Shown here: one piece after another, positions 1,495 through 48,690 of the stretch
Numbering within the stretch: the first letter of the stretch is position 1
How the letters are laid out: each line of letters starts with the position of its first letter
Source: Spirochaetes bacterium ADurb.Bin133
GTDB lineage: Bacteria > Spirochaetota > GWE2-31-10 > MWDO01
Direction: 5' to 3'
NCBI GenBank assembly: GCA_002070605.1
Contig: MWDO01000020.1
Coordinates: 1 to 49,058, forward strand
Length of the DNA: 49,058 bases
The notes under the pieces: model-generated
What the model was told of the DNA's origin: nothing
The model's input: the letters and a program-made list of their open reading frames with translations, nothing else
The model's database searches: none
Position numbers and translations under genes: made by a program

Positions 1495-1584
1495 AACTTT
1501 ATACCCCTTATTAATAATTTTTTTAAAATTATATTCTATTTTAAATTTAAAATTTATGCAAGAAAAATTGTTTGATAAAAAGCT

Positions 1585-2286
1585 CCCGTCGGTTTTTTGG
1601 GCAAAAGAAAAATCTACGCATATGTGTCATTTTTTTTTAATCAGTAAAATATTTGTCATTTATTAAAAATTATCCAAATTTTTGTAAAGAGTTTTCTACT
1701 TTTAGTTGTTATATATAAAAGAAAAAGGAGAAAATTTTATGAGAAACAAAAAACATCTATTTCACTTTATAGTGTCAGAATCTATGAATACCAATGTCAT
1801 AGATTTTTTACTAAAAGAGTTTAAAATTAATACGTTTAGCAAACTGTTTGAGACTATGTTTCGCCTCATTGACAAAAAAATCTCAAAAATGAAGAGAGTA
1901 ATCGGAAATCATCGCTCCGAATACGCCGTTATAGATAATACCAACGATAAAAGGCTGGATAAATACCTCAGAATCAGCGAAGCAGACTATCTTCAAATAA
2001 AAAGATGGCATTCTTTGTATAACGAATTCGGTATGGCTTCGACGGTTCGAGATATTATACTGTTTTTTTATAACGGCGCTATGAAATACGGACTAGAAGG
2101 ATTTCTTGAGCTTATTGGTAAGAAGTTGAAGATCGATAAATTAAAAAACGACTTTTTGGATAGAATGACACAACTGTTAAATATAACCGCTCGAAAACAG
2201 CTATTATACGCGTTTGTAATTGAAAATTTTCCCGAATACATCCGCTCTACCTAAAATTAATTCTTATCTCCCCAAAAAACCGGCGG
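1585..2286 (+). mobile_element. TIR-bounded element carrying a tandem-RHH gene (copy 1)
   Basis: The left end CCCGTCGGTTTTTTGGG (1585-1601) and right end CCCCAAAAAACCGGCGG (2270-2286) are inverted copies of each other. Inside the left end is one CATATG site (1619-1624) with GTGTCAT on its right arm. An AT-rich leader of about 100 bases follows, almost the same as in the two other gene-bearing copies, then one gene (1739-2254) that fills the rest. No transposase is present and I see no convincing target duplication. This is the cleanest gene-bearing copy in the window. Confidence 0.65.
1739..2254 (+). CDS. Tandem ribbon-helix-helix-like protein, paralogue 1
   Basis: A 171-residue protein of a three-member family in this window, about 85% identical to the copy at 37695. 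I do not recognise a named family. Residues 73-117 (strand around KYLRIS, helix EADYLQIKRWHSLYNEFG, turn, helix STVRDIILFFYNG) have the strand-helix-helix layout of ribbon-helix-helix DNA-binding proteins. Residues 5-47 (strand LFHFIVS, helix from ESMN to FKI, helix NTFSKLFETMFRLIDKK) show the same order, so the protein may be a fused RHH pair. The C-terminal 50 residues are helical and basic. The start at 1739 rather than 1706 is set by AAAAAGGAG eight bases upstream. The gene lies inside inverted end repeats, so its own repeats are a candidate target. Function unknown; the fold is inferred from sequence pattern. Confidence 0.8.
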   Translation: MRNKKHLFHFIVSESMNTNVIDFLLKEFKINTFSKLFETMFRLIDKKISKMKRVIGNHRSEYAVIDNTNDKRLDKYLRISEADYLQIKRWHSLYNEFGMASTVRDIILFFYNGAMKYGLEGFLELIGKKLKIDKLKNDFLDRMTQLLNITARKQLLYAFVIENFPEYIRST

Positions 2287-2324
2287 AATACCGGTAAATA
2301 AATTTACATAGTTTAAAAAAGATA

Positions 2325-6982: not shown

Positions 6983-7003
6983 GCAACCATTTTTTCTACG
7001 CGC

Positions 7004-7710
7004 CTCGCCGGTTTTTTGGGGCGGGGAAAATTGACACATATGATGTTAAGGATAAAAATCGACGCATATGTGTCAATTTTTTTTTAATTAGTAAATTAAT
7101 TGTTATTTATTAAAAATTTATGCAAATTTTTGTACAACGTTTTCTACTTTTAGTTGTTATATATATAAAAGAAAAAGGAGAAAACTTTATGAAAAACAAA
7201 AAACATTTATTTCATTTTATAGTGTCTGAATCTATGAATAATAACGTTATAGATTTTCTACTGAAAGAGTTCAAAATTAATACATTCAGTAAACTGTTTG
7301 AAACTATGTTTCGCCTTGTTAATAAAAAAATACCAAAAATGAAGAGGATAATCGGGAATCATTGTTCAGAATACGCCGTTATAGACAATACCGACGATAA
7401 AAGGCTGGATAAATACCTCAGAATCAGCGAAACGGATTATCTTCAAATAAAAAGATGGCATTCCTTGTATAACGAATTCGGTATGGCTTCGACGGTTCGA
7501 GATATTATCTTGTTTTTCTATAACGGCGTCGCGCAATACGGGTTGGAAGGATTTCTTGAGATTGTTAGTAAGAAATTGAAGATTGATAAATTGAAAAACG
7601 ACTTTTTGGGTAAAATGACACAACTGTTAAATGTTACCAATCGAAAACAGCTATTATACTCGCTCTTAATCGAAAATTATCCCAAATACGTCTATTCTAC
7701 GTAAAAATAT
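7004..7710 (+). mobile_element. Element carrying a tandem-RHH gene, right end lost (copy 2)
   Basis: The left end CTCGCCGGTTTTTTGGGG (7004-7021) is followed by GCGGGGAAAATTGACACATATG and a second CATATG at 7065-7070, then the AT-rich leader (about 7078-7188) and gene 7189-7704. The other gene-bearing copies end with ACCGGCGG shortly after the gene; here the homology stops after GTAAAAA and continues into an AT-rich stretch ending TTGACCGG. I read this as a damaged right end, so the right boundary is approximate. Confidence 0.55.
7189..7704 (+). CDS. Tandem ribbon-helix-helix-like protein, paralogue 2
   Basis: 171 residues, intact, clearly the same family as 1739-2254 and 37695-38210. The two strand-helix-helix units fall at the same positions (5-47 and 73-117), and the middle block LRISETDYLQIKRWHSLYNE is almost unchanged. 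Differences concentrate in the linker at 48-62 and the last 25 residues. The start at 7189 follows AAAAAGGAG with eight bases spacing; an in-frame ATG at 7120 lies inside the conserved non-coding leader and is rejected. It stands alone between a sugar epimerase and a fucose synthase gene. Function unknown; DNA binding is inferred. Confidence 0.8.
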   Translation: MKNKKHLFHFIVSESMNNNVIDFLLKEFKINTFSKLFETMFRLVNKKIPKMKRIIGNHCSEYAVIDNTDDKRLDKYLRISETDYLQIKRWHSLYNEFGMASTVRDIILFFYNGVAQYGLEGFLEIVSKKLKIDKLKNDFLGKMTQLLNVTNRKQLLYSLLIENYPKYVYST

Positions 7711-16379: not shown

Positions 16380-16762
16380 TATGACGGGCGTAGGCGAACA
16401 ACGCATATGCATGCGTTAGGGCGTCGGGTTCTTAAAATGACACATATGTGTCAAAAAAAATGGACGCGTAATCTTCGATTTTTTTTGATTATGAGAATAT
16501 AAAAATATTCAAAACGGGAATTCCCGCTTTTATTAGGAAGCGCGGCGGCGGTTATACAGCTCCATATGTGTCATTTTTTATCGCAGGGCAGTTTGACACA
16601 TATGCGTCGAATTTCTATCGAGGAGCGGCGCGGCGTATAGCTCCATATGTGTCGATTTATTTTCGGTATCATATGTGTCATTTAATTTCAACGCGATAAT
16701 TGCCGCCGCGCTTTAGGCGCATATGCGTCCATTTTTCTCCCACTCCCAAAAAACCGCCGGGG
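16380..16762. repeat. CATATG palindrome mosaic array (7 sites)
   Basis: This gene-free stretch between two convergent genes holds seven CATATG cores at 16404, 16443, 16563, 16599, 16644, 16670 and 16720. Their arms are mostly GTGTC or GCGTC on the right, or GACAC on the left. The site at 16438-16453 is the perfect palindrome TGACACATATGTGTCA. The right end CCCAAAAAACCGCCGGGG (16745-16762) matches the element family; the left end is unclear. Other modules are CGGGAATTCCCG (about 16514-16525) and ATCGAGGAGCGGCG (16617-16630), both with relatives in the array at 48375. I see no coding sequence here. Confidence 0.75.
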
Positions 16763-16782
16763 TACGCGAGATGCCATAAATT

Positions 16783-18177: not shown

Positions 18178-18249
18178 ATACTCCCTAACGCGATAAAATT
18201 TTAATCAATCAAAATAAACGTCCATAAATTACCGATTAAAAACATTTGT

Positions 18250-18320
18250 TTCATATGTGTCAATTTTATCTTTAATTTCATATGCGTCAATTTCTCCGCT
18301 CCAAAAAACCGACGGGCGCG
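18250..18320. repeat. Partial CATATG element between two reverse genes
   Basis: Two CATATG sites (18252-18257 with GTGTCAATTT, 18279-18284 with GCGTCAATTT) lead into the right end CCAAAAAACCGACGGGCGCG (18301-18320). No matching left end is seen in the 72 bases before it. It sits in the 181-base gap between murB and the sugar phosphotransferase gene and would be transcribed if murB reads through. Confidence 0.6.
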
Positions 18321-37447: not shown

Positions 37448-37469
37448 GAAAAGAAACGATTCTTTAAGA

Positions 37470-38220
37470 CCCTTCGGTTTTTGGGGGTGGAGAAATTCGA
37501 CGCATATGCGTTGTCATGTTTTATCTTAATTTTTTGACACATATGATGTTAAGAAGAAAATTGACACATATGGGCAAATATTTTTAATTAGCAAAATATT
37601 TGTCATTTTCTAAAAATTTATGCAAATTTTTGTATAACGTTTTCTACTTTTAGTTGTTATATATATATATACAAAGGAAAAAGGAGAAAATTTTATGAAA
37701 AACAAAAAACATTTATTCCATTTTATAGTATCAGAATCTATGAATACCAATGTCATAGATTTTTTACTAAAAGAATTTAAAATTAATACGTTTAGCAAAC
37801 TGTTTGAAACGATGTTTCGCCTTATTGACAAAAAAGTCCCAAAAATGAAGAGAATAATTGGGAATTGCCGCTCCGAATACGCCGTTATAGACAATACAGA
37901 CGATAAAAGGCTGGATAAATACCTTAGAATCAGCGAAGCTGACTATCTTCAAATAAAAAGATGGCATTCTTTGTATAACGAATTCGGTATGGCTTCGACG
38001 GTTCGCGATATTATACTGTTTTTTTATAACGGCGTTATGAAATATGGGTTGGAAGGATTTCTTGAGATCGTTGGTAAGGAATTAAGGATCAATAAATTAA
38101 AAAACGACTTTTTGGATAAAATGACACAACTGTTAAATATCGCCGCTCAAAAACAGCTACTACACGCCCTCGTAATCGAAAATTATCCCAAATACGTCTA
38201 CTATACGTAAAAACCGGCGG
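37470..38220 (+). mobile_element. TIR-bounded element carrying a tandem-RHH gene (copy 3)
   Basis: Left end CCCTTCGGTTTTTGGGG (from 37470) and right end AAAAACCGGCGG (38209-38220) are inverted. The right end overlaps the stop codon of the gene. Three CATATG sites lie inside the left part (37503, 37540, 37567), the last two joined by GATGTTAAGAAGAAAATTG, a module also found at 7040-7064 and, related, at 41951-41985. The AT-rich leader of the gene follows (about 37588-37694). The element fills the gap between gyrB and pepA. Confidence 0.62.
37695..38210 (+). CDS. Tandem ribbon-helix-helix-like protein, paralogue 3
   Basis: 171 residues, intact. Around 24 differences from the copy at 1739, mostly conservative, which suggests the protein is kept under selection. 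It has the same two strand-helix-helix units (5-47, 73-117) and the same AAAAAGGAG ribosome site. The linker residues near 48-60 (VPKMKRIIGNCRS) and the C-terminal 20 residues vary most. The stop codon lies within the right end repeat of its element, so gene and element boundaries are shared. Function unknown. Confidence 0.8.
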   Translation: MKNKKHLFHFIVSESMNTNVIDFLLKEFKINTFSKLFETMFRLIDKKVPKMKRIIGNCRSEYAVIDNTDDKRLDKYLRISEADYLQIKRWHSLYNEFGMASTVRDIILFFYNGVMKYGLEGFLEIVGKELRINKLKNDFLDKMTQLLNIAAQKQLLHALVIENYPKYVYYT

Positions 38221-38246
38221 AGTTAAAAACTTCCATATATCAAGAA

Positions 38247-41814: not shown

Positions 41815-41887
41815 GAGTTATTGTTAAAACGCATAGAATAATTTGATTCTTATCAAGAAATAAAGTATAATCTTAACGATCGAAGCG

Positions 41888-42052
41888 CCCGTCGGTTTTT
41901 TTTTTGGGGCGGGGAAATTGACACATATGAAGCATAGAATTCTTGGGGAAATTAACGCATACGACGTTAAGAATAAAAATTGACACATATGGAGCATTTT
42001 TATTGACGCGGGAATATTAGCGCATATGGGCGTTTCCAAAAAAACCGACGGG
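41888..42052. mobile_element. MITE-like element, both ends present, no gene (165 bp)
   Basis: Left end CCCGTCGG with ten T and GGGG (41888-41909) and right end CCAAAAAAACCGACGGG (42036-42052) form inverted termini. Three CATATG sites (41924, 41986, 42023) lie between them. The middle contains GACGTTAAGAATAAAAATTGACACATATG-like sequence, which recurs in the leaders of the gene-bearing copies at 7004 and 37470, so this looks like a shortened derivative of those. It lies 28 bases before the ATG of the DUF4097 lipoprotein gene, in a position to affect it. Confidence 0.7.
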
Positions 42053-42080
42053 AGCATAATCAAATATAAAAGGACTTTAT

Positions 42081-44509: not shown

Positions 44510-44783
44510 GTTTTTTGGGGAATAAAAAATATTTGTTCCATATGCGTCATTTTTTTTATGCGACAATTGTCGCGCGTTATCGACGCGACGCATATGTGTC
44601 ATTTTCTTCCTTAAAGCCATATGCGTCGATTTTTGTCGGGGAGCGGCCGCGGCGGCTATGTAGCATATGTGTCAATTTCTATCGAGGAACGCAGCGCTGC
44701 ATATGTGTCAATTTTAAGAGTCGATCCAACCCGCCGCATATACGTCCAATTTATTTCCTCGCCCAAAAAATATACGACGCGCC
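44510..44783. repeat. CATATG palindrome mosaic array (5 sites) before trpB
   Basis: A left end-like GTTTTTTGGGG (44510-44520) and right end-like GCCCAAAAAATATACGACG (from 44761) bound five CATATG cores (44539, 44591, 44618, 44664, 44700), plus a worn CATATA near 44737. The palindrome GCGACAATTGTCGC lies at about 44561-44574. The spacers share ATCGAGGA and CGGGGAGCGG-like blocks with the arrays at 16380 and 48375. Open frames across it are not genes: they follow the repeats. It fills most of the 358-base gap. Confidence 0.72.
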
Positions 44784-48374: not shown

Positions 48375-48690
48375 TTATCCCATATGCGTCAATTTGCTCA
48401 TCGAGGAGCGGCGGGGCGTATATGTATATCATATGTGTCAATTTATTCATCGCGGAATATTGCGTTGCATATGTGTCAAAATTTCTACGACAATTGTCGC
48501 GCGCTATCGACCCGCCGCGCCCCTATAAAAATGTGAATTCCCGTTTTGAATATACTAAAATACTAAACACAGTTCATGCCGCGACTTTATCGGAGCTTGC
48601 GACGCTAAGAATAAAACGCCCATATGTGTCAATTTTATCTTTAGCGCCATATGTGTCATTTTTCTTTTCCCCAAAAAAACGATAGGGATA
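48375..48690. repeat. CATATG palindrome mosaic array (5 sites) at the right end
   Basis: Five CATATG cores (48381, 48430, 48468, 48621, 48648) lie in 316 bases, ending in CCCCAAAAAAACGATAGGG (48669-48687). It shares three modules with other arrays: ATCGAGGAGCGGCG (also at 16617), GACAATTGTCGCGCG (also at 44563), and GAATTCCCGTTTTGAATAT, which occurs inverted at 16500-16525. The longest core-free part (48474-48620) holds the last two. Short frames crossing it are repeat-derived and not genes. Confidence 0.72.

Follow-up and report, generated by a model that had tools for sequence, protein, structure and literature searches.

A probable mobile insertion cassette with IS66-type ends and a predicted tandem ribbon-helix-helix gene in a spirochaete genome

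INTRODUCTION

Mobile insertion cassettes (MICs) consist of inverted repeats around a gene, have no transposase, and usually show a target duplication (PMC3913671); MIC231 of Bacillus cereus and the qnr-bearing mic elements are examples (PMC3913671). The locus described here, from Spirochaetes bacterium ADurb.Bin133, shares with MICs a passenger gene inside insertion-sequence ends, the absence of a transposase, target duplications, and presumed mobilization in trans. The ends of MIC231 are of the IS231 type, whereas those found here are of the IS66 type. Known MICs carry useful cargo and exist in few copies. In contrast, the cargo here is a predicted tandem ribbon-helix-helix (RHH) protein accompanied by a putative binding site of its own, and the cassette comes in dozens of diverged intact copies accompanied by hundreds of gene-less relatives and modular arrays. 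BOX of Streptococcus pneumoniae and Correia of Neisseria are short intergenic elements with hundreds of copies, BOX being modular; unlike these, the present family has a coding member and a palindromic box tied to that member's gene.

A preliminary description of this DNA held that the element matched no insertion sequence, toxin-antitoxin cassette, or integron known to its author. The kind does have precedents: the ends are IS66-like with an 8-bp duplication, and gene cassettes that lie between insertion-sequence ends and lack a transposase are known as MICs. We consider it probable that the feature is a mobile insertion cassette composed of IS66-type ends, a TTGACACATATGTGTCAA box, a leader with a promoter, and an RHH gene, and that it is moved in trans. 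An MIC or MITE of the IS66 type is thus not new in itself. The novelty lies in what is carried and on what scale, in the link of the gene to a box, and in modular arrays that recombine: a putative regulator is the long-term cargo of a MIC, and it is scattered along with its putative site, the latter in many hundreds of copies, in modular arrays that have been shuffled. The family offers a testable bacterial case of transposons by which a regulator may be spread along with its operators. Its cargo, a predicted DNA-binding regulator with a probable site, has stayed intact across dozens of diverged copies and is linked to MITEs that occupy over a third of the sampled intergenic gaps; the protein represents a family not found in Pfam, NCBIfam, or PDB.

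RESULTS AND DISCUSSION

Anatomy of the element and its relatives in the window

The window, which is the whole 49,058-nucleotide stretch analyzed, is contig C20 of a 2.99-Mb MAG of 103 contigs (G000, the own genome). The inverted ends originally placed at 1585-1601 and 2270-2286 are real; they align best as 1586-1601 and 2271-2286, with 15 of 16 positions complementary. Target-duplication offsets extended the ends to about 22 bp, and the 8-bp duplications beside them, like this extension, were not in the preliminary description. As had been described, the ends enclose one CATATG (1619-1624), a conserved leader, and an intact 171-residue open reading frame (ORF). This is the only gene inside the element; a transposase gene is absent. 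The features are as follows.

1574..1581, no strand: candidate left target-site duplication, GATAAAAA (partner at 2293-2300, GGTAAATA, 6/8 identical)
1582..1602, + strand: left terminal inverted repeat of the GCTCCCGTCGGTTTTTTGGG type, 22-bp full extent deduced from target-duplication offsets
1613..1632, no strand: CATATG palindromic box (TACGCATATGTGTCA), putative binding site, with CATATG at 1619-1624, 114 bp before the ATG
1633..1738, + strand: conserved leader with promoter-like TTTTTGTAAAGAGTTTTCTACTTTTAGTTGTTATATATA and ribosome-binding site AAGGAG (49 copies aligned by eye)
1739..2254, + strand: gene for the predicted tandem RHH protein, 171 aa
2270..2291, - strand: right terminal inverted repeat, CCCCAAAAAACCGGCGGAATAC
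2293..2300, no strand: candidate right target-site duplication, weak

The target-site duplication of this copy is weak (6/8); across the whole family the duplication is significant (see below). The leader with its promoter-like TTTTTGTAAAGAGTTTTCTACTTTTAGTTGTTATATATA is common to nearly all gene copies, and may indicate use of an unusual sigma factor.

The preliminary description had seen no match to a toxin-antitoxin cassette or an integron, and anatomy rejects both. Every inspected copy has a single gene, not an adjacent toxin and antitoxin. An integron cassette would go with an integrase, attC, and no target duplication; there are 8-bp duplications and two inverted ends instead.

The window also contains the following elements. 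Most of them are gene-less, which the preliminary description had missed.

7001..7704, + strand: second gene-bearing copy, with left end, two boxes, and gene at 7189-7704; right end lost
16400..16764, - strand: gene-less modular element with at least 8 boxes and one end at 16745-16760
18229..18320, - strand: gene-less element with TCCATAAA/TTCATAAA on its flanks; site empty in the sister genome G001
37467..38222, + strand: third gene-bearing copy, with left end, three boxes, gene at 37695-38210, and shortened right end
41885..42055, + strand: gene-less element with both ends and two GACACATATG boxes
44539..44760, - strand: gene-less modular array
48381..48690, - strand: gene-less modular array with one end at 48670-48685

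At 7004 the left end is present and the gene intact, but the right end is missing, as had been noted. The recurrence reported at 37470-38220 held for the left end and the intact gene; its right end, however, is cut to AAACCGGCGG directly after the stop codon. At ≤3 mismatches the window has 10 ends versus 0.5 expected, and at ≤1 mismatch it has 39 boxes versus 2.1 expected, both far more than chance would give.

Copy numbers in the genome

Searching the whole genome for the end sequence and the protein gave many copies of both, making the phenomenon much larger than the preliminary description suggested. There are 83 protein matches in the 2.99-Mb MAG, 55 of them near full length with 83 to 100% identity and all with open frames. 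The others are three paralogues at 37 to 42% identity and about two dozen pieces; the pieces lie mostly at contig ends, a sign that the assembly breaks at the gene repeat, and pairing them suggests roughly 60 to 75 gene copies in the genome. The 17-base end (≤3 mismatches) occurs about 570 times (reversed control, 3), and the exact 12-base box TTGACACATATG occurs 791 times (reversed control, 0). Of the 20 relatives searched, G001, with 39 boxes, is the only one to have more than a single box.

Statistics on the elements were drawn from a 785-kb sample of the genome, which contains 232 ends, 486 boxes (GACRCATATG, both strands), and 29 gene hits. These fall into 199 clusters, most of which lack the gene. 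Thus, the gene is one part of a larger modular family whose members are mostly gene-less. The protein does not occur mostly apart from the end repeats, since a left end accompanies 41 of 55 copies and a right end 33 to 43 of 61; the corresponding reversed controls gave 0 for the left end and 0 to 4 for the right end.

Target-site duplications and empty sites

In the 785-kb sample, 64 clusters have both ends. Their flanking 8-mers match each other with a z value of 8.9 relative to permuted flanks, and their 9-mers with a z value of 9.2. The target-site duplication that the preliminary description proposed looking for is therefore present at the family level and is 8 bp long (z about 9). Flank identity of at least 7/8 was found for 6 of 21 gene-bearing elements (z 3.4) and for 17 of 52 gene-less elements (z 7.1), with 5% expected in each case. 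The ends of many copies are decayed or missing, and a clear duplication is lacking in most copies with the gene. Perfect 8-bp duplications flank a near-uniform 102-bp gene-less type (C18:13118, C18:36392, C21:34870, C8:47124, and C14:41467 in G000), which is probably the most recently active subfamily.

Empty sites, also proposed as a check, were found in G001. This genome, from a sister species in the same genus, has 85 to 89% DNA identity with the own genome and an orthologous dS of 0.63. Elements are absent from it at five sites: window position 18229, C21:23194 (an element with the gene), C21:29419, C21:34870, and C21:39435. Because of local rearrangement at three of the five, the duplication is directly visible only at 18229 and at C21:34870, where the element has GTAGTTTTA on both sides.

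Three diverged G000 paralogues occupy sites orthologous to those of G001 copies (L041/L083, L044/L085, and L045/L086); these are old, vertically inherited members. In G001 the expanded subfamily has a single copy (L047 versus L022). The DNA beside it is homologous, in the opposite orientation, to one flank of a G000 copy, and the other flank has no match.

The ends resemble those of IS66 elements

No IS66 transposase was found in the elements, in the own genome, or in G001. IS66 transposases (PF03050) are present in G003, G004, and G005. In G003, which is of the same family, an IS66-type element at L218:1319-2824 encodes a 459-aa transposase (PF03050, E 4.7e-40) and has GAAAATAT repeats on both flanks. 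Its ends, GTAATCCCTTAGTTTTTGGTGG, differ from the GTAATCCGTCAGTTTTTTGGGG of the present family at 4 of 22 positions at both ends (0.0003 such matches expected per locus). A transposase sharing the ends, which the preliminary description had suggested seeking, was thus not found in the own genome; G003 has one, whose element agrees at 18 of 22 positions at each end. GTAA-type ends (GTAATAGGTCAGCTTT, GTAACTACTCAGCTCTT, and GTAACTATTCAGCT), mostly with TCAG further in, are also seen in other IS66-type elements of the phylum. The ends of the present family are also GTAA-type with an 8-bp duplication, and GCGC-type variants occur too. An 8-bp duplication is given by the IS66 elements ISPpa5a and ISPpa7 (PMC3281130).

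The ends, the 8-bp duplication, and the match to the G003 element lead us to classify the family as IS66-derived MITEs, and as MICs where the gene is present. Single-gene IS66 elements such as that of G003 likewise have ends of about 22 bp starting with GTAA and an 8-bp duplication; the difference is that here boxes, alone or together with the RHH gene, take the place of the transposase gene. The cassette belongs to a family of several hundred elements, mostly gene-less MITEs built of box-bounded modules. Given that the own genome and G001 yielded no IS66 transposase, the mobilizing enzyme is deduced from the similarity of the ends: an IS66-family transposase would move the cassette in trans, and its gene either would have been lost from the genome or would lie in the unassembled part.

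An IS256-type transposase was rejected as the source; only two dead fragments exist (C3:99831-99959 and C36:17665-17832), with no matching ends nearby. No autonomous elements with the same ends were found in the 785-kb sample, and long pairs of ends enclosed ordinary genes or HicAB-like ORFs. At C8:6113-6546 in G000, two adjacent small ORFs, HicA/HicB-like by eye, have a near-identical gene-less element on either side and may form a composite with them.

The protein and its putative binding site

AlphaFold2, given 18 homologues, predicted two beta-alpha-alpha units (E5-13 H14-28 H33-55 and E72-80 H81-93 H99-117) with a pTM of 0.80 and a mean pLDDT of 82. The 171-aa protein is therefore predicted to be a tandem RHH protein. 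On this model the original proposal, a non-autonomous element carrying its own regulator, appears largely right: the gene is of a DNA-binding type and the element has no transposase. The best Foldseek matches are F-plasmid relaxosome chains (probability ≤0.93, TM score by target length ≤0.62, E ≥0.33), which we take to be TraY. Like TraY and other tandem RHH proteins, the protein has two predicted RHH units per chain; it differs in having extra C-terminal helices, in being encoded outside a transfer region, and in having no credible sequence match in Pfam, NCBIfam, or PDB. A credible family match was likewise absent from PHROG. In a profile search with the 18 homologues, one hit Pfam RHH_1 (E 0.044) and one a RelB antitoxin model (0.028), and the profiles gave no further support. 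In the expanded family, variation is lowest in strand 1, predicted to contact DNA (mean minor frequency, 0.6%), and highest in helix 33-55 and toward the C terminus.

The box is present in 55 of 55 copies with enough upstream sequence, and in 54 of the 55 the last CATATG lies 94 to 145 bp before the ATG. The paralogues in G000 and G001, at 37 to 45% identity, keep an upstream CATATG box, nearly always as GAC(A/G)CATATG, and some of their boxes are full palindromes (e.g., TTGACGCATATGTGTCAA). Binding of the protein to the box is the most economical reading of these circumstantial patterns. Because the position of the box is conserved and diverged paralogues have kept it, autoregulation of the gene through the putative box is its most likely first role. 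The protein would bind the palindromic TTGACACATATGTGTCAA box and from there regulate its own leader, and binding at dispersed boxes may have further effects.

The protein could instead be an accessory transposition or recombination factor that, like TraY, coats box arrays and joins element ends, the gene being kept because the element depends on it. The fold matches to relaxosome chains, the boxes inside most elements including gene-less ones, the association of gene and boxes since the 40%-identity split, and the strong constraint on the gene (omega, 0.126) all accord with such a role. However, the fold matches score weakly, most RHH proteins are repressors, and the G003 IS66 element has a single gene and no GACACATATG box, so the G003 transposase does not need the box. 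We judge an accessory role unlikely.

Selection, recombination, and modules

Across 53 full copies, mean dS is 0.43, dN is 0.054, and omega is 0.126, indicating purifying selection. None of the 53 has a premature stop, versus 61% per copy in a neutral simulation. Linkage between variable sites is at background beyond about 10 bases, although short-read assembly may make mosaics at longer range. The variants shared at intermediate frequency include replacements and transversions. Since variants are shared in this way and yet unlinked, the gene copies act like a population that recombines. Gene conversion is itself able to maintain intact copies; hence the lack of broken ones is no proof that every copy is needed in place. 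A star-like burst with recurrent mutation is disfavored as the cause of the missing linkage because K35E, T68S, I125L, and others are common to many copies, yet unlinked.

The stretches between boxes are also shared: 134 of 198 oriented modules fall into families of at least four, and these recur in varied order and in both orientations. The 36 adjacent pairs of large module families represent 29 distinct combinations. Such shuffling may arise by recombination at the boxes. Shuffled modules and free recombination among gene copies would also be expected had the elements spread by ectopic homologous recombination and segmental duplication instead of transposition, their ends being terminator-like hairpins; but the clean empty sites, the end homology to a real IS66 element, and the 8-bp target duplications argue against this, and we consider it highly improbable.

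Distribution among genes

Although 88% of the sample is coding, 143 of 156 box clusters lie outside predicted ORFs. An element is found in 127 of the 336 intergenic gaps of ≥30 bp in the sample (∼38%). Occupancy is 56% for convergent, 43% for divergent, and 31% for codirectional gaps (P = 0.003), a pattern that fits purging from genes and operons. Targeted insertion at promoters is disfavored by the excess between convergent genes.

Such high occupancy, together with intact, constrained copies and diverged copies at orthologous sites in G000 and G001, might mean that the protein and boxes are a domesticated host regulatory or nucleoid-organizing network in which the elements are old and their mobility incidental. 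But occupancy is greater between convergent genes than upstream of divergent genes, where promoter targeting would give the reverse; in the sister species the tested sites are empty; and G001 has only 39 boxes. Domestication therefore seems unlikely, and the mobile cassette remains our preferred reading. An extension of it, which we put forward tentatively and regard as doubtful, is a self-spreading regulon: the regulator gene (∼60 to 75 copies) and many hundreds of operator boxes, carried by a transposon family in recombining modular arrays, would spread and evolve as one recombining intragenomic population and would jointly set the expression or organization of a large share of the intergenic regions.

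Occurrence beyond the genus

A protein match was found in 6 of 393 genomes of the phylum, 5 of the 6 in the same order. A phage or plasmid origin was rejected, as the protein had no match in 50,697 phage records, 72,556 plasmid records, or viral contigs. The bare 18-bp palindrome is present in two viral contigs, probably by chance. G005, from another family of the order, has at least nine diverged RHH-like matches. Seven inspected paralogues (L192, L196, L200, L204, L207, L210, and L213) have a common leader (AAAGAAT...TTTTGGATATTAATA) but neither a CATATG box near the gene nor visible IS66-type ends; they are a related dispersed multicopy gene family.
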